From positions 80,948,151 through 81,012,150 of the forward strand of contig NC_133120.1 of the NCBI RefSeq assembly GCF_033568475.1: 64,000 nucleotides of DNA. The letters run 5' to 3'. Below are positions 16,718-62,211 of the stretch, in pieces. Below the pieces are notes generated by a model. That model was not told the DNA's origin and ran no database searches. It was given only the letters and a program-made list of their open reading frames with translations. Within the stretch, counting starts at the first letter, position 1. Each line of letters begins with the position of its first letter. Origin of the DNA: Henckelia pumila (Eukaryota; Streptophyta; Magnoliopsida; Lamiales; Gesneriaceae). A program made the position numbers and the translations under genes.

Positions 16718-19696
16718 TATAAGGCCCGAAAATATTAAGTTCTTAATGACGGGATTTAAGATTTAAATTCCGGATATGAGAAAATATTTATTTGAAGAAG
16801 TTAAGAAATGTGGAATTGCAATTTCGGGTCAGAAATATTTAATTTGAGGATTTTCGGATTTTAAGAAGTTTATTATCCGGAATTCTTAAATTAAAAGATT
16901 AAAAATATTTGCAATTGATATTTATGGAAGTTAAGATGTGAATTCCAAGATGATAAATATCAAGAATGAATTTTGAGGATAAAATCCGAGAAAGGGCCAA
17001 TTTGCAAATATTGAGCAATTCAGGGACTAAAGTGCAATAATGTCCGAAATGATTTAATTTTAATCCAAGAATATTGAATTTGAGAATATTTAGAGTTTAG
17101 ACTTGAATTCTAATATTTTTAAATTATTTAGGATTGAAATTGAATTAAATCGCTTGTTCAGGGACTGAATTGCAATTAGGCCAAAGTGCAGGGACCAAAC
17201 TGCAAATTCCTTGCAACTTGGCTGAATAAAAACGTGTAATCAGCAGGAATTCTTCAGAATGTTCAGCAAGTGACCGAGAGAAGGGAGAAGAAAGGGTTTC
17301 AAGCAAATTTTGATTTTCAACTCCGATATCTTTTGATCCGCCCGGTAGAATTTCTGATTGAGCATATATTTGCGATCACAGCTCCGAGTGCTACGTTTTG
17401 ACGTAAGTTTTGTGAAGTTCTACCATGTTTGAATTTTAAGTTGTTGTTAGAATTAAGATTTGATTGTATAAACGTGTTCTAGCATATACGACGATAGCAT
17501 ATCTAAGACGGATCGAGAAAAGATCGTCGTTTGGACATGTTTTGGAATATTGAAAGAATTATCGAAATTCTGAATTTTGAGGGCTGCAATTCACGTGATT
17601 AGGCTGCTGAATTATGGATGTTATGATACTTATAAGATTGTCTAATTGATGTTTAAGCTTTTAGAATTTCCGGTTTTAATCCGTTACGCCGCCGGTTCAA
17701 GATTTTGAATTGCTATTCATTCTATATGTCTAGAGCTCATATTCAAGTGTTTAGTGGATGAATTGAATATGTGGTTATATTTAGAATGAAGGTATAATGA
17801 TATTTGAATCGAAAGATTTATCGAATTCAAATAGTTATGACGTCGGTTTGAATTCCGATTGTTTTAGTCAGATTTGAAATGTATCAGCTTTAAAGAAACA
17901 TCGATTCAGATTGGAAATTGATGTTTAGATATGTTATACATTATTTCAGATTTGACTTGAAAATTATCGAAGTTGAATTGACGAGTTCAAGTTCGAATGA
18001 CTTGAAGTGTTTGAAGTTGAATCAAGAATACCTTCAAGTAGCACTGATTGAAATAAGCAGAATTTGATGTCAGATTTGGACAGCTTGTAGTTGATCAAGA
18101 ATTGACAGAGGGTCAGCTATTTGAATCAGAAATGCAGGTATGAATAGACATTAATAAGATGGGCAGAATAACTCGAGATTGTTGTTGATTATCGAGTTGC
18201 CTAAAATCACATACATACATGTTTAATATATGTTATTGTTTACGTTTACATAAATGAGATAGATTATTCAAGACAGATATCTTCTTGAATTTCCAGAATA
18301 TTTATGTCAATGTTTACTTGTCTTCTTTGATTTATATTATGTTCTGTATTGAACATGTCTTACATATTCCATGTGATGCTTACAGATTTGTCGGTATCTT
18401 TGAGTGATTATATGATCATATGATTATATGATTAATGTGTTCAAGATGTTGTTTTAGCTTATGTATGATTTGATGCATTCAGATTATGTTGCATTCATCT
18501 TGAACTCCAGCCTGAAAAGCACAGAGGGTTGAAAGGCCTAGAATGCAGATGACGTTTGTAGAACTGTAGTTGAGTGGCACGGAATATAGATTTACTTCCA
18601 GAGTCAGATGACTCATGGCACGGAATATAGATTTATTTCTAGAGCTAGATAACTCACTATAGTTGAACCAACGTCAGGGGATTGAGAGATTTGACGCCAC
18701 CTCGATTGGGAGAGTCGGTGGTTAGTTAAAGATTGTATTTCCCCGGGATCCCAGAATTACGATTTATTGATATCAGATTCGATAGCCTATTCCTTGGCAC
18801 ATGCATTGCATTTATGCATTAACCTAGAGATTTTTAGGGATTAGAATATGTGTTTATAAATGCTAGCATGTTATGTTATGACATTCAAGATTTGAATGAG
18901 TTTATATACTTGGTATTAAAGATGAACATACTATCATGTTTTATCTCCTATTACATGATTGAAGATTTATGATTCATTTGGCATATAGATATCATATGTT
19001 TAACTGATGTATATGCATGTTGTTCATACTGAGATTTATTCTCACCGGAGTTATCCGGCTGTTGCTTTGTTTGTATGTGTGCATTGCACCAGGTTTGGGG
19101 CATGAGCGAGTCAGATGTGGCTTGGATAGCTCAAGATTGAGAAAGATTAGCATGTGGAGACTTCGGGCTAAGAATAGATTGCTGTCAAATGCATGTTAGA
19201 AGGTGTTGATTTAGTTTGAGCTTAGAAAACTTAGAATTGAGTTTATTGTATTGCACCTTAGAAACATGTATGCGATTATTGTTATGTCTAGATATGCATG
19301 TGTTTATGCTTCGGACATATTGAGATTATGTATGCAATTTTTCAGATTTGAAATAGCCCTAGCAACTTTGATATTTGTTGTAGCTTTTGATAATTTTTGT
19401 AAATTTCTGCACCGACCCTTCTTGGTAGAATGAGCATAACTTTTTACTGAAAACTCCGATTAGGGTGCGGTTTGTGGCATTGGAAAGCTAAGACAAAGAT
19501 CTACAACTTTTATGTTTATCATTTTACCAGATTCTGTCCGAAACCTATGCGCGGGCGCGCCTGAATGGGGCGCGGGCGCTCGTGGGGTTCTGAAAAAAAA
19601 TAAAAATTTTGGTTTGAATATTCTTTTATTATATGATTAATTGTTGATTAATCGTTTATTGCCCTAAGATGAGATTAGCAACCCGAGGTCCCCACA
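16718..19696 (+). repeat. 5' LTR
   Basis: 2979 bp, beginning TATAAGGCCCG (the canonical TG has become TA) and ending CCCCACA. By eye it differs from the 3' LTR at only about a dozen positions over the whole length, so divergence is of the order of 0.4%. Short ORFs inside it (for example 19017-19199) recur in the other LTR and are not genes. Confidence 0.95.
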
Positions 19697-23286: not shown

Positions 23287-26263
23287 TGTAAGGCCCGAAA
23301 ATATTAAGTTCTTAATGACGGGATTTAAGATTTAAATTCCGGATATGAGAAAATATTTATTTGAAGAAGTTAAGAAATGTGGAATTGCAATTTCGGGTCA
23401 GAAATATTTAATTTGAGGATTTTCGGATTTTAAGAAGTTTATTATCCGGAATTCTTAAATTAAAAGATTAAAAATATTTGCAATTGATATTTATGGAAGT
23501 TAAGATGTGAATTCCAAGATGATAAATATCAAGAATGAATTTTGAGGATAAAATCCGAGAAAGGGCCAATTTGCAAATATTGAGCAATTCAGGGACTAAA
23601 GTGCAATAATGTCCGAAATGATTTAATTTTAATCCAAGAATATTGAATTTGAGAATATTTAGAGTTTAGACTTGAATTCTAATATTTTTAAATTATTTAG
23701 GATTGAAATTGAATTAAATCGCTTGTTCAGGGACTGAATTGCAATTAGGCCAAAGTGCAGGGACCAAACTGCAAATTCCTTGCAACTTGGCTGAATAAAA
23801 ACGTGTAATCAGCAGGAATTCTTCAGAATGTTCAGCAAGTGACCGAGAGAAGGGAGAAGAAAGGGTTTCAAGCAAATTTTGATTTTCAACTCCGATATCT
23901 TTTGATCCGCCCGGTAGAATTTCTGATTGAGCATATATTTGCGATCACAGCTCCGAGTGCTACGTTTTGACGTAAGTTTTGTGAAGTTCTACCATGTTTG
24001 AATTTTAAGTTGTTGTTAGAATTAAGATTTGATTGTATAAACGTGTTCTAGCATATACGACGATAGCATATCTAAGACGGATCGAGAAAAGATCGTCGTT
24101 TGGACATGTTTTGGAATATTGAAAGAATTATCGAAATTCTGAATTTTGAGGGCTGCAATTCACGTGATTAGGCTGCTGAATTATGGATGTTATGATACTT
24201 ATAAGATTGTCTAATTGATGTTTAAGCTTTTAGAATTTCCGGTTTTAATCCGTTACGCCGCCGGTTCAAGATTTTGAATTGCTATTCATTCTATATGTCT
24301 AGAGCTCATATTCAAGTGTTTAGTGGATGAATTGAATATGTGGTTATATTTAGAATGAAGGTATAATGATATTTGAATCGAAAGATTTATCGAATTCAAA
24401 TAGTTATGACGTCGGTTTGAATTCCGATTGTTTTAGTCAGATTTGAAATGTATCAGCTTTAAAGAAACATCGATTCAGATTGGAAATTGATGTTTAGATA
24501 TGTTATACATTATTTCAGATTTGACTTGAAAATTATCGAAGTTGAATTGACGAGTTCAAGTTCGAATGACTTGAAGTGTTTGAAGTTGAATCAAGAATAC
24601 CTTCAAGTAGCACTGATTGAAATAAGCAGAATTTGATGTCAGATTTGGACAGCTTGTAGTTGATCAAGAATTGACAGAGGGTCAGCTATTTGAATCAGAA
24701 ATGCAGGTATGAATAGACATTAATAAGATGGGCAGAATAACTCGAGATTGTTGTTGATTATCGAGTTGCCTAAAATCACATACATACATGTTTAATATAT
24801 GTTATTGTTTACGTTTACATAAATGGGATAGATTATTCAAGACAGATATCTTCTTGAATTTCCAGAATATTTATGTCAATGTTTACTTGTCTTCTTTGAT
24901 TTATATTATGTTCTGTATTGAACATGTCTTACATATTCCATGTGATGCTTACAGATTTGTCGGTATCTTTGAGTGATTATATGATCATATGATTATATGA
25001 TTAATGTGTTCAAGATGTTGTTTTAGCTTATGTATGATTTGATGCATTCAGATTATGTTGCATTCATCTTGAACTCCAGCCTGAAAAGCACAGAGGGTTG
25101 AAAGGCCTAGAATGCAGATGACGTTTGTAGAACTGTAGTTGAGTGGCACGGAATATAGATTTACTTCCAGAGTCAGATGACTCATGGCACGGAATATAGA
25201 TTTATTTCTAGAGCTAGATAACTCACTATAGTTGAACCAATGTCAGGGGATTAAGAGATTTGACGCCACCTCGATTGGGAGAGTCGGTGGTTAGTTAAAG
25301 ATTGTATTTCCCCGGGATCCCAGAATTACGATTTATTGATATCAGATTCGATAGCCTATTCCTTGGCACATGCATTGCATTTATGCATTAACCTAGAGAT
25401 TTCTAGGGATTAGAATATGTGTTTATAAATGCTAGCATGTTATGTTATGACATTCAAGATTTGAATGAGTTTATATACTTGGTATTAAAGATGAACATAC
25501 TATCATGTTTTATCTCCTATTACATGATTGAAGATTTATGATTCATTTAGCATATAGATATCATATGTTTAACTGATGTATATGCATGTTGTTCATACTG
25601 AGATTTATTCTCACCGGAGTTATCCGGCTATTGCTTTGTTTGTATGTGTGCATTGCACCAGGTTTGGGGCATGAGCGAGTCAGATGTGGCTTGGATAGCT
25701 CAAGATTGAGAAAGATTAGCATGTGGAGACTTCGGGCTAAGAATAGATTGCTGTCAAATGCATGTTAGAAGGTGTTGATTTAGTTTGAGCTTAGAAAACT
25801 TAGAATTGAGTTTATTGTATTGCACCTTAGAAAAATGTATGCGATTATTGTTATGTCTAGATATGCATGTGTTTATGCTTCGGACATATTGAGATTATGT
25901 ATGCAATTTTTCAGATTTGAAATAGCCCTAGCAACTTTGATCTTTGTTGTAGCTTTTGATAATTTTTGTAAATTTCTGCACCGACCCTTCTTGGTAGAAT
26001 GAGCATAACTTTTTACTGAAAACCCGATTAGGGTGCGGTTTGTGGCATTGGAAAGCTAAGACAAAGATCTACGACTTTTATGTTTATCATTTTACCAGAT
26101 TCTGTCCGAAACCTATGCGCGGGCGCGCCTGAATGGGGCGCGGGCGCTCATGGGGTTCTGAAAAAAAAAAAATTTTTGGTTTGAATATTCTTTTATTATA
26201 TGATTAATTGTTGATTAATCGTTTATTGCCCTAAGATGAGATTAGCAACCCGAGGTCCCCACA
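23287..26263 (+). repeat. 3' LTR
   Basis: 2977 bp, TGTAAGGCCCG...CCCCACA. Differences from the 5' LTR seen by eye include substitutions near 24825, 25241, 25253, 25402, 25550, 25629, 25833 and 25942, and indels near 26023 and 26170. Confidence 0.95.
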
Positions 26264-27045
26264 TCTCTTCTGGACAAATGGTCGTTATTTGCCCATGTTT
26301 CTTGGACTGCTTCCTGAATCCATTTGTGTAACTGTGATATCTCCGGGAAGCTTGGCGACGTTGTATAAACTGAGGCCAAGGCTCCAAATTCATACCAAAG
26401 CTTTACATCCTTAGGATTGACATTGTTTTTTAGCTATACCCTTGGATATATCCCTGCAACATCAACCCTGCTAGTGTTAGGGTTAATTTCACTTTTTGTA
26501 CTTAATTTCTCCCACCTCTGTTGATAAACCTGAAATGGAGAAATAATAGCTGGATTAGTATCGATCTTAGATTTTCCCTTGTCAGTGTTGGGCCTAAGAT
26601 TGATCTCTTCCTCTTTTACCCCAGAGACGGAGGGTTGACTTGATGAGGAATCCTCATCAATTGTTGCTTCATCTAGATCTTCAAAAGCTGATGATAGATT
26701 AGCACTTGTTTCTTGAGTTTTAGCTTCCTCAACATCTTGTTTTTCAACCGATGGTTGTATTTCTTGTTTTTGTAAAACCAATGGTTTTAGCATATCTTGT
26801 TTATGAAAAACCAATGGTTTCTCTATGGCCTTCACAATTGGCCCTTGAATAGCAGCCCATAGTTGTGTTTGAGCTTGCATACATCCTGTAATTCGATTAG
26901 ATACTTTGATCTGATCAGCTTGTTGTAACCTGCCGGTCATTTCAGCATTAATGGCTAACTGGTTGAACTCGGTTTGAAGCAACCCAAGGTTTTCCCTGAG
27001 ATGCCTCTGCATTTTCATGATGGAATCCATGTCATTGCCTTCCAT
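26264..27045 (-). pseudogene. Viral transactivator-like ORF, 5' part
   Basis: Starts at 27045, overlapping the end of the RT ORF by 14 nt. The first about 200 codons include a predicted helical N-terminus (MKMQRHLRENLGLLQ) and an acidic, Ser/Glu-rich linker. An in-frame TAG (26436-26434) follows, after which the same frame stays open, with a VKLWYEFGALASVYTTSPSF stretch that resembles the conserved core of caulimovirid transactivator (viroplasmin) proteins. It then meets the LTR element at 26264. Family role: reinitiation of translation on the polycistronic RNA and inclusion-body formation. Here it has one nonsense codon and is cut in two. Confidence 0.65.
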
Positions 27046-29056
27046 CTCTTGTTAAGAAATATGCAAGAATATTTTCATGAGATTTAATAATAACAATATC
27101 AAAAATATAATTTTGACATAATGCTTGCCATCTTAATAACCTAGCTTTCTCAGGTTTAGATTCAATCTTATTTTTTAAGAAAGCTTTTACCTGGGTGTTA
27201 TCAACCTTTAGCGTGAATTTTTTAGCAAGTAAAAATAATGGACATTTTTCGAAAGCCCTTTTAACTGCATAAAATTCCTTTTCGTTGATATGCCATCTGA
27301 TGGCCTCTGATTCTGAAAAAATACCGCTACAGTATCTGCATGGTATTTCTCCATCCGTAGTGATCTTGGTAAGGACTGCTGCCCACCAATCATCACTAGC
27401 ATCCGTAAATAAAACCAGATCATCTTCATCTTCGGGTATAGCCATTTTTGGGAGATTCTTACATATCTCCTTTAATTGGTTTACCCCTTGAGTATGGTTT
27501 TCGGTCCATATAAACCTAACATCCTTTTTTAACAAAGGATTGAACACCTTTCTGTACATTGCTAGGTTTTTAATGAACATCCCTGCGAAATTAACTACTC
27601 CAAGAAAACTCTGGAGTTGTTTTATGTCTTTGAGTTTATCTGGAAAATTCTTCACCTTTTCCACAATATGAGGTTGTAGAATTATTCCAGTTTCATCAAT
27701 CTCAATACCAAGGAATTCAATTTTCCTTGTTGTTATGACTGCTTTCCTTTCAAATAAGATCAGTCCTTCTTGTTTACAAATTTTAGAGAAAATCTCTAAG
27801 TGTTTAATGTGTTCGTCTATATTTTTTGATGCTATAAGAATATCATCAATATAAACAAACGTAAAGTTGAAATAATCTTTAAAAAGGTTATCCATCTTTT
27901 TTTGAAATATCTGGGGTGCATTAGCCAATCCCATAGACATAACTTCCCAAATATAGTGTCCTTGTGGAGTAGAGAAGACTGTGAATTTCTTACCGCCTTC
28001 TTCCATTCGAATCTGGTAAAATCCAGACTTACAATCAAATTTTGAGAATACTCTAGCATTTCATACACAACTAATTAGGTGTTCTCTACTCGGTATAAAT
28101 TACCCATCAAACTCCAGGATTTTATTAATACCTTGGTAGTTAATAACTAATCTGGGTTTCCCTCTTTTTATTTCACCATGATTTCTGACCAGAAATCCTA
28201 GGCTGCTATATGGTGAAACTCCTTCTTTGATTTGACCAAGGTCCAAATGTTCCTTGATAATTATTCTCATATCCCTTTGATCTGTTATGTTCATCGGGAT
28301 AGACTTATATCTGACGAATTCATATTCTTTGCCTTCCTTTAGAGTAAGACTAGCTTTGAGTTGATTTTTATCCCACCATGCCAAAGGATGCTCGTTGTAA
28401 CTTTCTTTGAGCCTCTTTTTGACATCTTCAAGGGATACCTTATTTTTTAACTCCATATCTCTGTGATTTAGAGTCACCTTGAGAAGCTCCATATCCTCTG
28501 TTTGGAGTTCTTGTTCTATTGTTATTTTCAACATGGTTTCTCCAAACCTTCTTGGATCTTTCATCTTTGGGTGAAAAAGTTGTCCTTTAACACCACGCTG
28601 GATGCAAAATATTATCGGCAATTGTCGATAAAAAACAACTTTGAGTCTTTGAACGATAATTTTATGATCACAAATTGTAGTGAACATAAGTCTTCTTGAC
28701 TCATTGTCTTGTGTGTACTTCTTAAACATTTGTAAAAAGTTATTTCCTAATAGGATACCAGCTCCTGTATCATGGAAATAGATTGGTGGTGTCTTTACCT
28801 TGTACCAAGGTGTTTGACCTGCTCCTCCCATGAAGATTTCTGCTTGTTTTATTCCTTTGCAAAGAATTAAAATTCTTCTAGAGAAATCCCGTCCAGCAAT
28901 TTTTGGCAATTCTTTTTCACATTCTTCAGGAAAGACTCCTCTTTTTGCTGTACAAATTCCTGCTCCCGAGTCAATATAAGCTGCTAAGTATTCAGCCTTA
29001 TATTGTTCATACAACATTCCTATTGGAATGTATATGGAGAAATGACTTGTTGTCAT
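27032..29056 (-). pseudogene. Viral protease-RT-RNase H ORF
   Basis: Polyprotein with, in order: an aspartic protease (DSG in AAYIDSGAGICTAKRG, about 28980), the RT N-part (KPRLVINYQGINK, about 28130), the RT catalytic YIDD in FVYIDDILIASKN (about 27850), a thumb/connection region, and RNase H (LFTDASDDWWAAVL, about 27410, with later WHINEKEFYAVKRAFE). Frame is lost between 28100 and 28006, with a stop near 28099 and a damaged palm segment read in other frames. Otherwise both halves are long and open. It starts at an ATGA overlap with the preceding ORF. Non-functional in this copy. Confidence 0.88.
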
Positions 29057-29319
29057 TTTTTAAAGGGATTACTAAATGGCCCTGCCATTTTTAACAGACT
29101 GTATTGCAACTCAGTAATCCGATTAAGACTTTTCTTCTTTAGTTTTCCTAAGGCTTCAGAAGGTAGAGTATGGTTACTTCTTTCTATTTCTTCGATGCGT
29201 CCTAGTAAATCATGTTCATGACTTACTAATTTCAATAGTTGCTTCTTCCTCTGTTTGTAAACAGAGTTTTCGAATCTGTTTAAGGGATTGTCCTTTATCC
29301 AATTCTCTTGGTTTTCCAT
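29053..29319 (-). pseudogene. Viral small ORF before the RT ORF
   Basis: An 88-codon frame, charged and helical (NSVYKQRKKQLLKLVSHE, LLGRIEEIER), ending in TGA that overlaps the ATG of the RT ORF. It is probably the C-terminal part of the movement-protein ORF after frameshifts in 29320-29600; it could be a separate small ORF. Confidence 0.5.
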
Positions 29320-29601
29320 CTCGTAGAATTTTTATTGAATCCTCCAAGTCTTCTCTTTTGCCATAAACTCTATTCCTTTTTCAAGGCGTTTCCATGGTTT
29401 ATGGTCCTCCAGAAATTCTAGGCCAAGAATGAGCTGATCCATTTCTTTTCCTGGAATTCCACAAATTTGAACTTCCAATTCTCCAATATTTATCACTCCT
29501 TGGTAAGTTCCTTTTTCTTATTGTTCCAAATAGTAAATCGAGTTACAAGGGAACTGATTCCGATGACTTGTAATTTCGAATACTATTTTCACTTCTTTCC
29601 G

Positions 29602-30348
29602 TCATTCTGAAGATCTAATTTTTTCTATTATAGAAAACTCTTTTTCTTCTGGTGGAATTTCTTGAATAGGAGATTTGTCCCATCTCTTACTTGTCATTCG
29701 GTCTTCTTGGAAAGATAACCTTTGGGGTTCTATTTTAAGGTCTCTGTATAAAACAGATCTGTCTTGAATTTGAATGTCTGTTTCCTGAATTAAAGAAAAC
29801 TTGATTATTTTCGGATATATTGCATGAGAAACTTTCCCAAATATCTCTGGAATTTCAATGAACTCATTTATAATAAATAATTCAGAATGGTGAGTATTAG
29901 AAAGAGCATATGAAATTTGATATGTAATAGAATATGGCTTATTACCTTCCTTCATTAGTCTTTTTTCTTTGAAGTTTCGATGCAACGTCAAGGCTCGACT
30001 AAAATCTCTATCAACTAAATTGTAGGCTATTCTTGGATAAATAACTCCCACAATTTTTCCTACGCACAAATTTCCTGAGATAGTTCCTAGAACCGCATCT
30101 TGTATATTTCCCATTCTTTTATCGCATACTACGATATCTATGGGTGAATCTATTCCTTTTTTAAAAGTAGCTTTGATCATAATCTGGATTGCTCCAATAT
30201 GAATCCAAGACATTGTCTTTGCTACTTCTGCTTTTAATTTCTGTAATTCCTCTCGAATTTCTTCAAAGAAAATCAACTGCATCTCAATTTGATTACTGGT
30301 TAATTCCATAGGAATCGCCATTTCCCTTCTGGATACCTTATAAATCAA
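29602..30348 (-). pseudogene. Viral movement protein
   Basis: A 248-codon frame matching the caulimovirid (30K-superfamily) movement protein core: IHIGAIQIMIKATFKKGIDS, then DAVLGTISGNLCVGKIVGVI, then IAYNLVDRDFSRALTLHR and YALSNTHHSELF. The function in the family is cell-to-cell movement through modified plasmodesmata. Upstream sequence to 30640 is broken into other frames (for example 30630-30424), so the N-terminal part is damaged. Confidence 0.8.
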
Positions 30349-30645
30349 ATTATGTCTTCTTTGTCTTAGCCCTAGGTTTCCTAAAACTCTTTCAACTTGT
30401 CCTGCCGAAAATCCTTGATACTTCTATAGTGTTGGATTTTCTCTCATAATCCTTTGAACCATATTATGAGATATCGTGGTTTGACTAAAGAACCCAGCCA
30501 AACTTTCATGTGTTTCATGTCGAAACACCTCCTCTTTACTCTGATTCTGATTCGGATTCATCCTCAGAAACTTCTTGACTAAATAATATCTCTTCTTCGT
30601 ATATTCTTTCATATGAGGGGATATCCTCAAATTGATATACTTGGA

Positions 30646-31935
30646 CTAGATCTTGAAAAAAAACCGCATCATCCATATCTGGTGTTGCTTCAAAGAGTTT
30701 GACTCCTTTTTTCTCGTTTTTTGGACAATTTGTAGATATATGTCCGTTTGCTCCACATGTCCAGCAGTTGCAATCCTTGAAACTTTCACTTGCCCTGTAT
30801 GAGTTCTTCTGAAAGTTCTTCTTGATGGTGTTCTTTCCCTGCTTTGTGATGAGCCTGTTGCTGGGGACGTTCTTGTAGGTCTACTTCTTCTACCTGATCT
30901 ATAGGATCTGGCTTTTTGTTTGGACCAAAATGTTCTTGGTTTCCAAGAACTCTTCATTCTTTTATTATAGGGATTATTTTTGAATTTCTTTCTTTTAAAT
31001 CCCTGTGTTCTGTTTCCAATGATTGTTGAAAGATCGTTTTCTCTACAACACAAAGGTGTATGCTTATCTATACCCCTTATTTTCTTATAGTTCTTTTGTA
31101 ATGCTGTCATATGGCACCATTCTGCCAATTTTCCTTTCAAAAAGGACGCTCGTCTTGCCAATGTATCAAGATTACCTGGAACGTATTCTTTAATCAGCAT
31201 TTCTCTCCAGGGACTTGGCATTTTTGCGAAAAATAGCTGAATAGCTACATTTTCCTCGACTCCCGAATTCCATCTGTGTTTAGTGAATAACATAATGTAT
31301 TCATCAACTAAACAAATATCATGTAACTCGAGGCTATACAGAGCTTGAGTATATCTTCTCTTTTTCTCTGTATCTTGATTATTGAAATAGTCTACCCCTA
31401 TGAATTGTGCTTTAAATAGGGTGGTCATTCTTTCTCCAATCTCGCTGAGGGATTCTCCTGCTAAGATTGATTTCTTCGTATCTAGCATAGTCATCTCCCA
31501 TGCGATCTTGACAGATCCCATTAGAATCATTTCTAGAAGTTTAATGAATCCTTCTTTATTGAGATCTAATGTCACTGCTGCAATTCTCATAGCTGACGTC
31601 CAATCATATATAAGATCTTCTCTGTTTTTGAAGTCCAAAACATCAAGGTTTAACATAACCCCATAAGGATGTATCGGGTCTAAAACAGTTTTTCCATAAG
31701 AAGTTTGATGTAGTGGTATTTTACTCCTTCTTGATCTGGTTCCTGCTGGATGTGAATTTTCTCCCACATGGAACTCACTATGTGGTTCTTCTGTTTTTAC
31801 CACATATCTTGGGGGATTTCCTATGGGTTGTTCACCCTCAGGGAAATTCATTTTTAGATATACAACTTTGAGATTCGCAAAAGAATCCGCAAGATTTTGT
31901 AGATCCTCGAGATTTAATCTTTCTAAAGTAGTCAT
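30646..31935 (-). pseudogene. Viral coat protein with displaced zinc knuckle
   Basis: A 429-codon frame. It has a gag/coat-like central part (DLIYDWTSAMRIAAVTLDLN, AIQLFFAKMPSPWREML) and a basic Arg/Lys-rich region (RSYRSGRRSRPTRTSPATGS). The zinc knuckle CWTCGANGHISTNC (C-x2-C-x4-H-x4-C, 30766-30725) is in a different frame from the main ORF, so a frameshift lies just upstream of it. An acidic Ser/Glu stretch follows in that frame. Start codon at 31935 overlaps the stop of the preceding small ORF (TGATG). Confidence 0.8.
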
Positions 31936-32307
31936 CAGATAGTGTTTTTCTCTGATACTGCTTTTATAAGATTAATCATCATTTCATCATTAGTTAAAGG
32001 TTTTTGAACCATTTTGGTTTTACCTTTCTGATGTAACAAAGGTTCGGTACCAAAAGAGAGTGGTAACCTTCCTCCTGTATTTTCTTTTTCTAGAACCAAA
32101 AGTATGTTCTAGGTTTAGGATTTTATTTTGAAGATCCTTTAGAGTTCCAAGAATTTCTTCTTGTTTCTTAAGGATTTCTTCAATTTACCGAAGTATTTTA
32201 TACAACTGATTGCTGTAATATTGTACCGTCTTTTGAATTTCTCTAAGATTTTCGGAGAGTTTAGAGGAATCTGGGGTAATCTCTAAAAATTTAGAGTTAG
32301 AAATCAT
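31935..32307 (-). pseudogene. Viral small coiled-coil ORF
   Basis: From an ATG at 32307 the first 40 codons end in a stop. The following sequence reads as a heptad-rich helix (EEILKKQEEILGTLKDLQNK) and, after a frame change, continues to the TGA at 31937-31935. Position and composition suggest a virion-associated-protein-like small ORF, as found upstream of or near the coat gene in several caulimovirids. This is an inference. Confidence 0.5.
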
Positions 32308-43600: not shown

Positions 43601-43989
43601 AAGTTTAGTACATACAAATAATGCATTATATATATAATAAAAAAATAATTCAAATAATTAAAGACTATTATTTTAAAATTTTGTATAATGTATATCTTAT
43701 TTCGAGATTTAAAAAATTTAATAATGAAAATATCTACATTTCAATATTATTCTCATTCTTATTATCATAGGGGTGGGTTGGGGGATTGAGATTCCCATAT
43801 TCGGCACAATATGCTTTGTAGAACCCGAACCAATACTAGAAAAAGCTATCCAAACCCGTCTCATTTTGAGTTTTCCCCACGGGGCCCCGAACTGTGGAAA
43901 TTTTTTTCATACTTACACAAATCATTCTTATTTACTGACAATATATTTGTAGATATTTAAACGTGAAAATTAAATACACTACAAGAAAA

Positions 43990-44310
43990 ACGCTAAAAGA
44001 CAACGGATAAAAATCCGTTGTCGTAGGGGGTCTAAAACCGTTGTAACTGATGGTGTTGTCAAAACTGCGCACCTACGACAACGGATAAAATCCGTTGTCG
44101 TTTCCCTCAAAGACAACGGATTTGTGTCTAACGACAACGGATAAAATCCGTTGTCGTTGCCCTCAAAGACAACGGATTTTATCCGTTGTCTTTGAGAAGA
44201 ACGACAACGGATAAATCCGTTGTCGTAGGGGCGCAGCTTTGACAACACCATCAGTTACAATGGTTTTAGACCCCCTACGATAACGGATTTTATCCGTTGT
44301 CGTTTTCTAT
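43990..44310. repeat. CACTA left subterminal repeat array and palindrome
   Basis: At least ten copies of ACAACGGAT or its complement ATCCGTTGT, several as perfect short palindromes (GACAACGGATAAAATCCGTT then GTC). A larger inversion is superimposed: TCCGTTGTCGTAGGGGGTCT near 44032 and TGGTGTTGTCAAA near 44051 recur inverted at 44238-44303. The whole segment could fold into one long hairpin. Confidence 0.85.
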
Positions 44311-45571
44311 ATAAAAAACAAAAAAATAATAAAATTTTTTATATAAATTCTAATATTATAAATAATCCAAAATTTAAAATTTCATAAATAAAATTTAATA
44401 TACAATTTTTTTAGTATTACAAATCACTCGAAATTAAAATTCTAATTCAATACACACTGCAAATCGAAGTATCTGACGTCTTGCCTCATTACAACCTTCA
44501 AACCTCTTGTTCTCAATCTCTGGAACAACACAAATCCAAGAAAAAGACAAAAAAAAAAAATTGTCAGCTTAGCCACATATGTATTAAAAATCTAGAAACA
44601 ATGAAACTAATTAACATCACTGTAAAGAAGAATTTTTTTTGACATATATTTTGCATCTCGCAATATCCCAGAGTACAGTAGAGAATTAACTTGGATAAGT
44701 ACTTAATCTGTACCAATTAACTAAATAACAAGGGGACACTAAAATCTTGGTCCACCTCTTGGTAAAAACTTCAGATCCTAAAGACAAGATCTAAATCCAC
44801 TATGCAAAGCAAATAAAGGTTTTACCACCATGCAACTATGCAAGTTACCATCTTTCTCAACTCAACTTAATGTTTAAGAGTGATTAACCATTAAATAAGG
44901 GCAGAGGGGCCATGCATAACATAAACATATGTTTTTAATTCTTATTATCACTAGTCACTAGATAATAAAACTGTAAGTTTGAAAGAAAGAGAATGTGATT
45001 CATATTCTCTACATCACAAAAAGAGATATCATATTCGATGAGGTATGCTTACTTATTTTCTCGGTATTCCAGCGAAGGTACTGCTAAAAGGTTGCAGAAT
45101 CACAAATACTCAGCAAACAGACAGCAAATATCCAACACATATCAACAAGTTCATGCAATGTGAGTGCAACCACAAATCAACAAGTTCATGCAATGTGAGT
45201 GGATAAATCCACGTACTTGAGTTTAGAAAATAAGTATGAGTTTTATATGAACCAACATTTACTCTCTCTTGAGCTTCTTATCAAGCTTATTTTAGGTGAT
45301 TCAAGTTTTCCACACAAAAGTAGTCACATTCTGTTCTCTCACTCGATACAGAGATGTGACTACATGAAAAATATCCCACCAAATAAATTCTTTGACCAAA
45401 GAACAGAATCTGTGTCAAATGCAGATCACACAAAACCAGTTCTCCAGCTCTCCTATAAGCAAGAAAAGAGAATAAAACAAGCCAAAAAAGCAGTATACAA
45501 CTTCCAGTATTCAACCACACATTGTAGAAGACACAAAGGTTTAAGAGATGAAATATTTAAAGTTAGCCTAC

Positions 45572-45643
45572 CATTAAATCGGACAGCGGAACCTTGACTT
45601 TTGTCAGCATGATTTCACAATTGTATGCCCTTTGTATCTCAAT
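45572..45643 (-). pseudogene. Captured formin FH2 exon
   Basis: A 72-nt segment with a consensus acceptor (TTCTTCCAG) and donor (ATG/GTAGGC) encodes IEIQRAYNCEIMLTKVKVPL SDLM. This closely matches the start of the FH2 actin-nucleating domain of plant formins, where the pattern is RRA-x-N-x-EIMLTKVK. With the exon at 45825-45892 it preserves the original exon order. It is a fragment only. Confidence 0.75.
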
Positions 45644-45824
45644 CTGGAAGAAAACATATGCTTTAGAAATTAGAATGATAAAAAAAACTACAGCTTTTAT
45701 CAAAAAAGAAAAGAAAAATTCTAGTAAATGCATCAACTATAGCTAGTGAAATAAATAATCAGATGAAATATAAACAAACCAGAAAAGAAGCCAAATGAAT
45801 AAAAATCGAAATTAGCCACTTTAC

Positions 45825-45892
45825 CAGATGGACTTTCTCAGATTTGAAACCTGAGGCACGTCCACTTGTGTTTCCATTGGCGCCTCCAAGAT
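45825..45892 (-). pseudogene. Captured formin exon upstream of FH2
   Basis: 68 nt between an AATTTAG acceptor and a CTG/GTAAAG donor. It reads LGGANGNTSGRASGFKSEKV HL, the Gly/Ser-rich linker that ends in the K-x-V-x-L strand just before the FH2 motif of plant formins. It joins in frame with the exon at 45643. Confidence 0.6.
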
Positions 45893-46214
45893 CTAAATTT
45901 GATACATCGGCTTAAAAAAGGCTCTCGAGTTCCAACATGTCTAATTCAGGAGCTCTAATATGGATGATACAAGAGAAGACCAAGTCATGACACATGCATA
46001 TAATGCGTTCTCAAAACAATAAATCCTTAAATCACACATATCTCGTAATGCCACCCACAAAAAATCAGGTCCACTTTATTGTCCTTGTAACTTGAGTTTC
46101 CTCACTGTTGTTCTCATCCGCAACCAAAAGTAAAAGTAGCTAGCCATTCAATAAAATATATACATATTTCGTAAAATATTTGTTATAAAATGAAGGCAAA
46201 ATTTGGATACAGAC

Positions 46215-46355
46215 CGCCTCAGACATGAAAGCTTGCTCGGGGTCATTGACAATGGGGGAAAGGGTTCCATCGTAGTCCAAAAACATAACTATTTGCTTTC
46301 CCTTTGAGGCTTTTGTTATCTGCTCGAACATGTCCAAAGCCGATGGATGCTTCAC
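46215..46355 (-). pseudogene. Captured trehalose-6-phosphate phosphatase exon
   Basis: A 141-nt exon bordered by ATTGCAG acceptor and GCG/GTCTGT donor. It encodes [20 protein letters not shown] followed by [20 protein letters not shown]. This contains HAD motif I (DYDGT) of plant trehalose-6-phosphate phosphatases, the enzymes that dephosphorylate trehalose-6-phosphate. Only about 47 of the usual 350-390 residues are present and motifs II-IV are absent, so no enzyme can result. Confidence 0.88.
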
Positions 46356-46373
46356 CTGCAATTTTATTTATTA

Positions 46374-46375
<2 letters not shown>

Positions 46376-46414
<39 letters not shown>
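46376..46414. repeat. (TTA)n microsatellite
   Basis: About 13 uninterrupted TTA/ATT units in the intron side of the captured phosphatase fragment. Confidence 0.9.
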
Positions 46415-47102
46415 GTTTTGGACAGCCAAAATTAGTACATGTATTCCCAAATAAGCCAAGTACTCACACGTGTATGCATGACAACAAACAACCAAAAAAT
46501 GTTCACATGTCATAGTTTCTGCCCATGCATATCCCATCCAAACTCACTGAGGCGGTGAATACTAACTTGGGTAGAATCAGGTCCACTTTATTGTCCTTGT
46601 AAGGCTCAAAAACTACAGATCCATAAATTACAGTCAACATAGTGTTTGATTAGTCAATAAATCACATAGCAGTAAAATAAGAATAAGAAGCAATTGATTT
46701 ATTAAACCTTACTTATGTCTAAGAACATGGAACTTATAGTATATAGACAAAAGGATGACATGCTAAAACACTGAGCTAACAATAAAACCTACCGTGGTAC
46801 ACACAGATTGCAGCAGAAAAGATCACAATGACAATAAAACAGCAAAATTAAAGATGCAGAGTTAATCCCACATGCTTAAAACTTGCAGAATAAGCATGAG
46901 CATTAAAAGACACTTCTACTCATAGTTCATTCAGATAAGAGTACATCAAGTACTGATTAAGAACCAAAGCAACTTCTCAACAAAATATCTACACGGCTCA
47001 AAATCTGACAAACTCACAAATGACTTCATCAAATACACAAGCACAAACATCAAGGGGAAAAATGGGCATTAATGGGCTGGAAAATAGCTGAAAATGTAAT
47101 AC

Positions 47103-47204
47103 CGATGCTGAACAGATGAACCGTGCTTTGCTTCCAGCCATCCAACTCATGAAAGCCATCATGAACAAGTTCTTGAAAGGTTCTTGTGCAACCTCCCATG
47201 TTTT
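47103..47204 (-). pseudogene. Captured EMC4 exon
   Basis: 102 nt between a GAACAG acceptor and an ATCG/GTATTA donor. One frame reads TWEVAQEPFKNLFMMAFMSW MAGS, characteristic of subunit 4 of the ER membrane protein complex (EMC4, DUF1077). The rest, in the next frame, reads STVHLFSIG, which continues the same family motif. A 5-bp insertion (AAAGC duplicated next to AGC) explains the frame change. EMC4 helps insert membrane proteins at the ER; here only one damaged exon remains. Confidence 0.8.
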
Positions 47205-47603
47205 CTGTTCACATCAACCAGTAACACAGTGACTTGTTGAGATTAAACCCAAAAAAAACAAAACAGAGGTAAAGCCCGAAATTTAAAAGGATTAAAAAAT
47301 ACGCAACCCTCTTTTTGAATTAATATCAACCACGAAAGTATTCGAATAAGAAATATCTTGGTTATGAGGATTGGAGGAATGTGACCGGATTCTAACGAAT
47401 AAATCCTCAAATTTCCCAAACGTAGATAACAAATCCCTCAATCAAATTATCACCATAAATCCGATCTTCGTACATAATCCTATCTATACAAAGCGAGTAA
47501 ATCCATAAACTTAGATTTTCGAAAACTTTCCAAATTCAGCTCGTCGACACATGAATACAAAATCAATAAGAGATCGAATCAATCTTTGCAAACATAATCT
47601 CAC

Positions 47604-47823
47604 CTGCAAGCTCCGAATCATTTTCCAAAGCAACGATATCGATCCATCTGTTACTAAAGTGTTGCCTCGGAGCTGAATGAGGCGAGGAGTCATCGAATCC
47701 AAAGATCCCGCAAATTAGATTCGGGAAAATAATGGAGAAAAACCATCTCTGTTGGTCGGGGCTGTGCCTCACAAGAGAGGACTCCACGGCAGAGCAAGCA
47801 GCGGAAATCTGAGGCGGAGACAT
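47604..47823 (-). pseudogene. Captured N-terminal exon, gene not recognised
   Basis: From ATG at 47823 (just behind a GC-rich, CT-rich 5' UTR-like stretch) 73 codons stay open: MSPPQISAACSAVESSLVRH, SPDQQRWFFSIIFPNLICGI, FGFDDSSPHS, ending at an AG/GTGAGA donor (47604). Base composition and the donor look like a genuine first exon of a host gene. I do not recognise the family. It is the most upstream of the captured pieces and could provide start codon and promoter to a chimeric transcript. Confidence 0.6.
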
Positions 47824-47984
47824 CGCGGCGGCCACGTCACTCAAGGTTGAAGATGAAGATGAAAAGATCTGAAAGAGGGGGGCGACGGGTTTGGGTAGGG
47901 TTTTCTCTCCCCTTTTTTTTTATAAGTATATGTGTATAATTGTATGAATAAAATATATTATTTAAAAAATTAATAAATAAACAA

Positions 47985-48240
47985 AGACAACAATTTTATA
48001 AAATCTGTTGTCTTTTGTCATAAAAAAACGCATAAAGACAACGGTGAATAAAAACCGTTGTCGTAGATTAAAAAAACCTCGCTAATAGACAATAGTATTT
48101 AAAAACCATTGTCTTTTACCCTTAAACCGTTGTTTTTGATAAGAAGAAATGATCAAAGACAACGGTTTTCATTAAAACCGTTGTTAAAGAGTAAAATGCA
48201 ATAGTTTTGGCAAAAATCCGTTGTCTTTATAGTGTTGTCT
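47985..48240. repeat. CACTA right subterminal repeat array
   Basis: About ten degenerate copies of AGACAACGG / CCGTTGTC in both orientations, more diverged than the left array. Confidence 0.8.
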
Positions 48241-48261
48241 ATGACATTTGTTGTAGTGATA

Positions 48262-55425: not shown

Positions 55426-56755
55426 TGTAGACAATTAAATTTGTCCACCTTTAAATATGGCAAATACAAAATAATCAAATATTAATAAAACAATTAGCTA
55501 TTTTTTTGGGAGATTAAATTTCTAAAAAAATAAATAGTTAATTAATTGATATTTTAATATATTTTGTGATCAAACCAAGATTTTAAAATCAAGATTGGAT
55601 CTTGTATCAAATGGAAGAAAATATTAACATTTTTAGTATTTAAAATCAAATCTTAAATCAAATAGAAAGAAATACTAATATTTTTAGTATTTAAAATTAA
55701 TCTTGTGATTAATGAAAGATAATCACCAAATAAATCAGGAGTAGCCAATCAAATTGCGATACCTCATCAAATAAAAAATGGTAGGAATCTGCATCTTTCA
55801 GCTATAAATAGGGGCAGATGACCAAAAAGAAGACACAACACAGAAGACAAAGAATCAGAGGAATAGAAGAATTCAAGACATTTCTCAAAAGTCAAATTCA
55901 AGAACTTCAAAGAAATCAAGAGAAGTTCAAGGCGTTCTTCTTTAAGTTCATCAAATTCGAGAAGATCAAGGCGTGATTTAAGGGATTAATTGCGTTCTTC
56001 TTCAAATATATATATTTAAATTCATTCAAATTCAAGAAGATCGTGTTCTTCATCAAATTCAAGAAGTTCGTATTCTTCATCAAACAAATCAAATTCAAGA
56101 AGATCGTGTTCTTTCTCAAATTCAAGAAGTTCGTGTTCTTCATCAAACAAATCAAATTCAAGAAGATCGTTTTCTTCATCAAATTCAAAAAGTTCGTGTT
56201 CTTCATCAAATAAATCAAATTCAAGGAGATTGTGTTCTTCATCAAATTCAAGAAGTTCGTGCTCTTCGTCAAATAAATAAAATTCAAGAAGATTGTGTTC
56301 TTCATCAAATTCAAGAAGTTCGTGTTCTTCATCAAATAAATCAAATTCAAGAAGATTGTGTTCTTCATCAAATTCAAGAAGTTCGTGCTCTTCGTCAAAT
56401 AAATCAAATTCAAGAAGATCGTGTTCTTCATCAAATTCAAGATAACAAATTTCAAGGCGCGATTCAAGGAGTTCATCGTGTTCTTCCCAAAATTTGAAAT
56501 TTTAATTCGATATCAATGTATTAACCCATCGAATTAACTTTATCAAGACATCAAATCAAATCTCAAGATATCAAATCGTCTTTCAAGAAGATCAAATACC
56601 CAAGAAATTTAAATGCATCAAGAAATTGTCATTGAAGAGGAAAATCAAGGGATTATCTAGATATCGCATCCACAAATATTTATTTAATTTCTCAAATTCA
56701 CTTTGTATCCATTTTATATTTCTTAATTTTAAGAAATAAAGAATTTTGCGCTACA
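55426..56755 (+). repeat. 5' LTR with internal minisatellite
   Basis: Contains CTATAAATAGG (55802-55812) as probable TATA box. The transcribed R/U5 part (about 56005-56445) is an array of about seven units of roughly 63 bp, built from TCAAATTCAAGAAG and GTTCTTCATCAAA words. Confidence 0.85.
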
Positions 56756-58313: not shown

Positions 58314-59571
58314 TGTAGACATATTGACCCTAAAATTATGAAAAATACAAAATAACATTAAATATCAATAAAAAATAATTGACTACTTATAAGAAAATTA
58401 AATTCCTACAAAAAAAAAATAGTTAATTAATTGATATTTTAATATATTTTGTGATCAAACCAAGATTTTAAAATCAAGATTGGATCTTGTATCAAATGGA
58501 AGAAATACTAACATTTTTAGTATTTAAAATCAAATCTTAAACTAAATGAAAAGAAATATTAATATTTTTAGTATTTAAAATCAAATCTTGTGATTAATGG
58601 AAAATAATCACCAAATAAATCAGGAGGAGCCAATCAAATTGCGACACCTCATCAAATAAAAAATGGTAGAAATCTGTATCCTTCAGTTATAAATAGGGGC
58701 AGGTGACCAAGAAGAAGACACAACACAGAAGACAAAGAAGCAGAGGAATAGAAGAATTCAAGACATTTCTCTCAAGTCAAATTCAAGAACTTCAAAGAAA
58801 TCAAGAGAAGTTCAAGGCGTTCTTCTTCAAGTCCATCAAATTCGAGAAGATCAAGGTGTGATTCAAGGGATTAATTGCGTTCTTCTTTAAATATATTAAA
58901 TTCATTCAAATTCAAGAAGATCGTGTTCTTCATTAAATTCAAGAAGTTCGTGTTCTTCATCAAACAAATCAAATTCAAGAAGATCGTGTTCTTCATCAAA
59001 TTCAAGAAGTTCGTGTTCTTCATCAAACAAATCAAATTCAAGAAGATCGTGTTCTTCATCAAATTCAAAAAGGTTGTGTTCTTCATCAAACAAATCAAAT
59101 TCAAGAAGATCGTGTTATTCATCAAATTCAATAAGTTCGTGTTCTTCATCAAATAAATCAAATTCAAGAATATTATGTTCTTCATCAAATTCAAGAAGTA
59201 CGTGCTCTTCGTCAAATAAATCAAATTCAAGAAGATCGTGTTCTTCATCAAATTCAAGATAACAAATTTCAAGGCGCGATTCAAAGAGTTCATCGCGTTT
59301 TTCCCAAATTTTGAAGTTTAATTCGATATCAAGGTGTTAACCCATCGAATTAACTTTATCAAGACATCAAATCAAATCTCAAGACATCAAATCGTCTTCC
59401 AAAAAGATCAAAAACCCAAGAAATTTAAATGCATCAAGAAATTGTCATTGAAGAGGAAAATCAAGGGATTATCTAGAGATCGCATCCACAAATCTTTATT
59501 TAATTTCTCAAATTCACTTTGTATCCATTTTTTATTTCTTAATTTTAAAAAATAAAGAATTTTGCGCTACA
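58314..59571 (+). repeat. 3' LTR with internal minisatellite
   Basis: Same layout as the 5' LTR, TATA at about 58690 (TATAAATAGGGGCAG). The array 58908-59255 has about one unit fewer, which accounts for most of the length difference. Confidence 0.85.
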
Positions 59572-61558: not shown

Positions 61559-61725
61559 TATGCTCTACGTACCCCTTTTCCACGACAAAAAAATAAAATG
61601 GATGATCGATTGTGAGCACAACATTCAAAATCCAAGTCCATTTATTTAAATTCTTTTTTATGATTTGGTAATATATATATATATTACAAGTTTAATTTAC
61701 ATGTATATATATTCCAAAAAAAATT

Positions 61726-62211
61726 ATGTCTCCTCTAAATATGGCTTACTTGCACCGAATCTTCAATGAGCTTGATAAAAATGGAGATGGGCTTGTGAGC
61801 TTGGATGAACTAATGTGGCTACTAGAGAAAATCAGTGTGCCTGCTAAACGAAACGAGCTCGAGCTTCCGGTGGGCGACAAGTGCTTGGACTACATCGATT
61901 TCTTGTTCTTTTACCAAACTTTGATCAAGGGAAACACGGTCGTCCAAGAAGAATATTGTTCGATCGAGCATGAAGACGACGACGACGACGTCTCGGAGAT
62001 GGATCTTCGGAAGGCTTTCCGGGTGTTCGATCTGAACGGAGATGGATTCATTTCATGTGACGAACTTCGACTTGTTTTGTCAAGATTAGGATTGTGGGAT
62101 GAACGTTGTGGGCAAGATTGCAAGCGTATGATCGATGTGTACGATACGAATTCGGATGGATTTCTTGATTTCGAGGAGTTTAAGGATATGATGCTGCTGA
62201 AGGATATATGA
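61726..62211 (+). CDS. CML44: Calmodulin-like protein, CML44-like (161 aa)
   Basis: Intronless calcium-sensor protein. EF-hand loops with canonical Asp/Glu spacing are at residues 17-28 (DKNGDGLVSLDE), 102-113 (DLNGDGFISCDE) and 140-151 (DTNSDGFLDFEE). The second position (about 51-62, DKCLDYIDFLFF) is a degenerate, probably non-binding EF-hand. A run of acidic residues (EHEDDDDD, 81-88) links the two lobes. Length, the MSPLN start and the LDELMWLLEK helix match plant CML44. Proteins of this class bind Ca2+ and regulate target proteins; the targets of this one are unknown. No signal peptide or lipidation motif. The convergent downstream neighbour is a CCCH zinc-finger gene. The frame is clean and looks functional. 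Confidence 0.93.
   Translation: MSPLNMAYLHRIFNELDKNGDGLVSLDELMWLLEKISVPAKRNELELPVGDKCLDYIDFLFFYQTLIKGNTVVQEEYCSIEHEDDDDDVSEMDLRKAFRVFDLNGDGFISCDELRLVLSRLGLWDERCGQDCKRMIDVYDTNSDGFLDFEEFKDMMLLKDI

Follow-up and report, generated by a model that had tools for sequence, protein, structure and literature searches.

CACTA transposons with pieces of several host genes in their interior have been described in different plants. In soybean, Tgm-Express1, which lies in the wp allele of F3H, is reported as a 5.7-kb CACTA element in which five unrelated host genes are represented by exon and intron pieces that are spliced into one transcript (PMC1947982), and from this splicing it can be judged that the pieces probably face one way. 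In Ipomoea nil, 339 non-autonomous copies of the Tpn1 family have been catalogued (PMC5105172), and for Pack-TYPE elements the fusion of neighbouring elements is given as an acquisition route (PMC8903248, PMC13317346). Here, a 4.3-kb element at positions 43977–48258 of a 64-kb stretch of Henckelia pumila DNA (Gesneriaceae, Lamiales; C1:80948151-81012150 of the 885-Mb assembly, hereafter the window) is described. It is a non-autonomous Pack-CACTA transposon. It can be said with high confidence that it exists in multiple copies and that its interior was built stepwise from intron-containing genomic pieces of six host genes.

First of all, the element starts exactly with CACTACAA at 43977 and finishes with TTGTAGTG at 48258, and it is flanked by the target site duplication ATA on both sides (43974–43976 and 48259–48261), which bears out the intact CACTA ends reported by an initial annotation made from the sequence. 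The window has this end pair together with the duplication a single time, and one of 200 Markov-simulated windows had it. The left end (43977–44330, plus strand; defined by motif count and folding) is composed of the CACTA terminal inverted repeat (TIR), subterminal ACAACGG repeats and a long, near-perfect inverted repeat with 77-nt arms that are 95% complementary, while the right end (47946–48258, plus strand) is composed of subterminal repeats and the TIR finishing in TTGTAGTG. Counting both strands, 19 of the 20 ACAACGG motifs of the window fall within these terminal regions, with 13 in the first 340 bases of the element and 6 in the last 290. The left-end hairpin is very stable: the folded stretch 44000–44310 has −223 kcal/mol, against a shuffle mean of −79. 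Genome-wide, the left-end pattern with up to three mismatches has 309 matches, most of them being candidate rather than established whole elements; the reversed pattern used as a control has none. No transposase domain was detected in a six-frame Pfam scan of the element. The CACTA ends, the duplication, the subterminal repeats and the lack of a transposase therefore define a non-autonomous CACTA element. That is to say, it has what marks CACTA (En/Spm) transposons (inverted CACTA ends, a 3-bp duplication, subterminal repeats in both orientations and dispersed copies) as well as what marks Pack-TYPE elements, namely that no transposase is found and that host coding DNA with identifiable parents is carried, four of the five located parents supplying captured coding exons.

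Six full copies, including that of the window, lie at different sites of the genome and are 97.4–98.2% alike (copies, relatives and parents are labelled L003–L039, these being stretches taken from the H. pumila genome after a search of the genome itself, 20 of them in the first batch). Perfect 3-bp duplications that differ from copy to copy (ATA, TAA, ATT, AAG and CGC) flank five of the six. Since the dispersed full copies have duplications of their own, the patchwork has moved as a unit with its full cargo. In addition, L007 is a partial copy. L008 is an apparent seventh copy, which is split: its right part, equally oriented, is found about 7.4 kb away at C4:111125849-111126919, a few bases of the element being present on both sides, and the sequence looks as if another element had inserted into this copy.

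Six host genes have supplied the cargo, and their pieces all lie on the minus strand; from the 48258 side to the 43977 side, they come from an SMPD4-like gene, EMC4, trehalose-6-phosphate phosphatase (TPP), formin, O-fucosyltransferase and an ABCB transporter. The initial annotation had proposed at least four captured genes in one orientation; both parts hold, and the O-fucosyltransferase and ABCB pieces had been missed. The first piece (47441–47835), identified by protein match and by its parent L021, with 93.4% identity, contains exon 1 of an SMPD4-like sphingomyelin phosphodiesterase gene (to 47604) and the start of intron 1. This exon had been noted as an unrecognised first exon, and it can now be named from its 70% identity to a Phtheirospermum protein carrying PF14724 (E 3e-25). 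Upstream of it on the minus strand lies a stretch (47836–47945) that is not in the SMPD4 parent; it has 19 matches genome-wide, 17 nearly full length and two short and weaker. Despite TATA-like and AAACCCTA motifs seen by eye, its being a captured SMPD4 promoter was ruled out, as the region upstream of SMPD4 in L021 does not contain it.

EMC4 is represented by more than the single exon reported earlier, of which the identity stands and the number does not. Exon A (47065–47207, minus strand) has a 5-bp frameshifting insertion and has lost the parental donor; its peptide is matched by Pfam at 2.1e-16 when read across the frameshift and at 8.3e-8 in the plain frame. Exon B (46550–46613, minus strand) retains the parental acceptor and is joined to the TPP piece within the overlap 46550–46558. 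Moreover, repeat comparison showed an exact 28-bp second copy of part of exon B (46063–46090, minus strand), which is templated filler at the formin/TPP junction, and both copies of this stretch are intact in five of the six full copies. The parents are L009 and L010, with 93–95% identity to exon A, while exon B has 92.1% identity to L009 and 96.8% to L010. These two are adjacent EMC4 genes about 8 kb apart (C1:109919000-109934500), one of which is identical to the Henckelia protein over residues 1–114; the other is less alike, especially at its 5′ side.

The TPP piece (46095–46558, minus strand) carries the exon 46355–46215 with HAD motif I, as had been claimed, and both parental splice borders. 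It is matched by Pfam at 3.4e-5, below the curated cut-off, and by solved TPPs at 6.5e-5; its exon is 97.9% identical to that of the parent L014, with identical splice borders. Downstream in L014 there are two further motifs that we take to be those of TPPs. The formin piece (45496–45980, minus strand; parent L012, 92–99% by region) includes the two FH2 exons that had been proposed, 45954–45825, in which TCA has become a TAA stop, and 45643–45572, with the parental intron between them; the protein search gave 2.8e-12, and Pfam gave only 0.064 for one short exon. The O-fucosyltransferase piece (44764–45367, minus strand) has no coding match, is 94.5% identical to L011 and adjoins an exon retained in the sister element L017; it is probably intron, and the L011 gene has O-fucosyltransferase domain exons (PF10250) on the same relative strand. 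The last piece is an ABCB (P-glycoprotein-type) transporter exon fragment (44457–44519, minus strand), detected by motif score and present as a longer copy in L038. Against what we take to be the plant ABCB motif, its ungapped score is 63, with a null maximum of 43 in 200 simulated windows, and the longer copy, read across a frameshift, matches plant ABCB19/ABCB1 (E 8e-4 to 2e-3). The AG at 44520 was considered as a captured ABCB acceptor and ruled out: longer relatives carry 0.2–1.7 kb more at this point, so it is a deletion joint. Weak Pfam matches in the element and its relatives were not counted, whether on the opposite strand (NOC3p 0.035 and 0.034, FeThRed_B 0.34, DUF5814 0.02, Tenui_N 0.09) or on the same strand (DUF7104 0.27, FeoB_Cyto 0.024, p450 0.032).

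The search for parents and the comparison of identities, which the initial annotation had suggested, placed five of the six in the same genome at separate sites, three on C1, one on C3 and one on C43, with 83–99% identity by region, gaps excluded. L021, L009 and L012 can be aligned with the SMPD4, EMC4 and formin proteins, respectively, over most of the protein length. The exons were therefore not found contiguous in one normal gene. That the whole is an ordinary gene cluster or a single normal gene, into which CACTA ends came by chance, has practically no probability, as nothing in its favour was found, the parents are at separate loci and dispersed copies with target duplications of their own refute it. 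Homology to the parents stops abruptly, with a 2-base overlap at the EMC4/SMPD4 joint. Since introns are present in the captured pieces, their source was genomic DNA or unspliced RNA and not mRNA.

Sister elements share overlapping subsets of this cargo. L022 is a deletion derivative without 44935–46510; L023, L024 and L026 share 43977–44930 and 45494–47053 with the element, L025 only to 46641, and no SMPD4 was seen in them. In L015, L016, L018, L019 and L020, the SMPD4 piece is combined with the right end, and L019 has an S1/P1 nuclease piece as well as SMPD4. L017 carries the O-fucosyltransferase piece including an exon, and Pfam detects nothing else there, while in L013 other blocks of the same formin gene are joined directly to TPP and EMC4. 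L038 and L039 have about 0.2–1.7 kb of extra ABCB-side sequence between window bases 44519 and 44520, forming a graded series of internal deletions, and the ABCB deletion joint has a 2-base overlap. These overlapping subsets fit stepwise capture, merging and internal deletion, and they would also fit fusion of neighbouring elements, no joining event itself having been seen. The simplest reading is that larger blocks were captured, internally deleted and exchanged between elements, the direction of each step being inferred. In terms of mechanism, larger genomic blocks would be taken up by aberrant repair or by the joining of neighbouring elements, and later shortened by internal deletions and exchanged among elements; movement would depend on transposase from other CACTA elements of the host. 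With the parents, full copies, a deletion derivative and sisters with partial cargo all in one genome, the order of capture, trimming and merging becomes directly testable, about which a single element says little. As a separate observation, L018 and L019 (C1 at 144.1 and 35.9 Mb) are 99.9% alike over 8.5 kb including the flanks, in opposite orientation, which suggests a recent segmental duplication or assembly redundancy; this pair and L031/L032, which share flanks, were each counted once.

Whether the captured exons form a working gene can be judged from their borders and frames. The initial annotation had given every exon usable splice borders. The positions of 47604, 47204, 46355, 46215, 45825, 45643 and 45572 agree with the parent loci, where borders were set by protein alignment and GT/AG rather than by transcripts; two other proposed borders, the donor at 47103 and the acceptor at 45892, fall within exons, the formin exon really beginning at 45954. 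If the captured exons made up a working chimeric gene, with transcription from the 48258 side giving one spliced mRNA whose short protein is under selection, this would agree with the common direction of all pieces, with the several preserved parental borders and with the in-frame ATG gained by SMPD4 exon 1 (ACG in L021), and the longest open frames of four modelled transcripts are 74–144 amino acids. We consider such a gene very unlikely, because the donor of EMC4 exon A is deleted, the formin stop is found in all six full copies, and the 5-bp insertion shifting the EMC4 frame is found in five of them (the pattern was not found in the sixth). Moreover, the SMPD4 frame is interrupted by a stop in L005 as well as in L006, L003 was searched for the exact ATG-start string and gave none, and divergence among the six copies is 2.17% in captured exons against 1.95% in the other, non-exonic interior. 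As the broken frames are common to the copies and exon divergence is no slower, the cargo is not maintained as coding sequence and has spread as broken pieces. The splice model first proposed reads TPP in the wrong frame, and its longest open reading frame (ORF), of 144 amino acids, is the upper value given above; a chimeric spliced transcript is possible.

Small interfering RNAs (siRNAs) matching the parent genes are likewise possible. Exact 21-mers are common to the element and parent exons, with a longest stretch of 22–61 bases per exon, and only between EMC4 exon B and one of the two EMC4 paralogs was no shared exact 21-mer found. From this it could be argued that the element is a small-RNA source acting in trans on the six parents, with the cargo kept for regulating or shielding. 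The exact stretches of up to 68 bases common to the element and the five located parents and the very strong left-end hairpin speak in its favour, and the fragments captured by maize Helitrons, Pack-MULEs and Sireviruses are reported to affect their donor genes through siRNAs (PMC13317346). On the other side, the folded hairpin at 44000–44310 lies outside the cargo and selection between copies was not seen, and we regard this explanation as unlikely. The cargo of the Pack-CACTA element would rather be a passenger, giving at most aberrant spliced or small RNAs and no working protein.

The common direction of the six pieces raises a further question. After it had been noticed in the window, nine relatives or parts of relatives were scanned by Pfam at a threshold of E 1e-5. 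Matches at or below this value were O-fucosyltransferase (L017), S1/P1 nuclease (L019 and L016), protein kinase (L028; 5.8e-6, below the Pfam cut-off) and AAA ATPase (L027), all in the same direction relative to the ends and none opposite; L031, L033 and L038 gave no Pfam match at E 1e-5 or better. In L023, Pfam matched only the known TPP piece (0.0045), also in the same direction. A P450 piece in L039/L028 was set aside, since its Pfam match is only 0.032, below the cut-off, and two solved-structure searches returned no P450. Among members with both ends established, the direction is thus the same in eight of eight gene families (SMPD4, EMC4, TPP, formin, O-fucosyltransferase, ABCB, S1/P1 nuclease and protein kinase), and a ninth, the AAA ATPase of L027, whose right end is not established, agrees; L016 and L027 have no established end pair. 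In a two-sided sign test, p is 0.031 for the window (6/6), 0.0078 for 8/8 and 0.0039 for 9/9, captures within one family being not fully independent. One explanation, which on balance we hold to be probable, is that the fragments were caught singly by ordinary gap repair and share their orientation by chance: six of six in one element is not extreme, and the filler copy and short overlaps fit repair, although the two additional genes in other bounded family members point the same way and raise the count to eight of eight. The other, which we put forward tentatively and with some doubt, is that this CACTA family captures directionally, the sense strand always running from the 48258-type end to the 43977-type end. 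If this were true family-wide, capture or survival would be tied to the way transcription runs, perhaps through transcription-biased insertion or through purging of one orientation, and if the direction survives a census, it would be a rule that neither gap repair nor fusion of neighbouring elements alone predicts. Since only two of the eight families were found after the idea arose, the orientation bias is a lead and not a result.

Several points weigh against a stepwise-built mobile Pack-CACTA, which we still prefer. Parent identities are uneven between pieces, the lowest being 83.3% (60 bases of EMC4 intron against L009), and these figures may reflect age as well as constraint; the ABCB parent was not located in the genome. 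Among the full copies, L005 has no perfect duplication (TAT against ATA). Transposase_21 loci number at least 150 in the genome, most of them free of stops in the matched domain and many with long uninterrupted frames; the autonomous element of the family was not identified among them, in that none of the 100 listed of the 309 left ends has any of the 211 listed transposase/DUF4218 positions within 15 kb on its inner side, and at one of these 100 (C4:64.807 Mb), a transposase lies on the outer side at a distance of 2 kb. Finally, neither an active element nor transposition nor RNA was seen, and mobility is read from genome copies.

Outside the element, the window contains long minus-strand ORFs at 26434–31971, one of them with what we take to be reverse-transcriptase-like motifs; this block presumably belongs to a retroelement or to something like an endogenous pararetrovirus. 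A large direct repeat is suggested by a pair of short tandem arrays at 18405–18656 that recurs, offset by 6,569 bases, at 24974–25225. Two arrays at 56026–56442 and 58906–59259 have almost the same 63-bp unit repeated in tandem, and each follows a similar 51-bp repeat pair (55599–55706 and 58484–58591), which points to a local duplication. In addition, a plus-strand open frame of 171 amino acids at 61696–62211 presumably encodes an EF-hand, calmodulin-like protein.

In comparison with the described systems, the Henckelia element is of the same kind as Tgm-Express1, Tpn1 and the Pack-CACTAs, and multi-gene cargo in CACTA elements is already known. Multi-gene capture, which the initial annotation had called unusual, is only partly so in view of Tgm-Express1 (PMC1947982) and the multi-locus Pack-CACTAs reported from maize (PMC8903248); the orientation is the part that is possibly new. 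The open-licence papers searched yielded no report of cargo direction as a rule for CACTA elements; a grapevine CACTA family is described there in which a PPR piece runs counter to the transposase ORF (PMC2528002), and directional cargo may be the only point beyond the known kind. Tgm-Express1 differs in its cargo (UP, CDC2, FPK, MDH and CS) and is reported with transcripts from reverse transcription PCR, whereas for the Henckelia element six full copies, parents and sisters are seen in the genome. The Tpn1 family is alike in that its CACTA ends are conserved, host gene pieces have taken the place of the interior, duplications are of 3 bp and most copies are non-autonomous (PMC5105172); it carries other cargo, its 339 copies stand against 309 left-end matches in Henckelia, and the two are likened by description. 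With the Pack-CACTA and Pack-TYPE elements reported from Arabidopsis, maize and rice, the Henckelia element shares TIRs, a target duplication, the lack of transposase, host coding DNA and several loci per element (PMC8903248, PMC13317346), and it differs from the Pack-TYPE elements described there in that several intermediate element types persist beside the parents, by which the order of assembly is partly readable.

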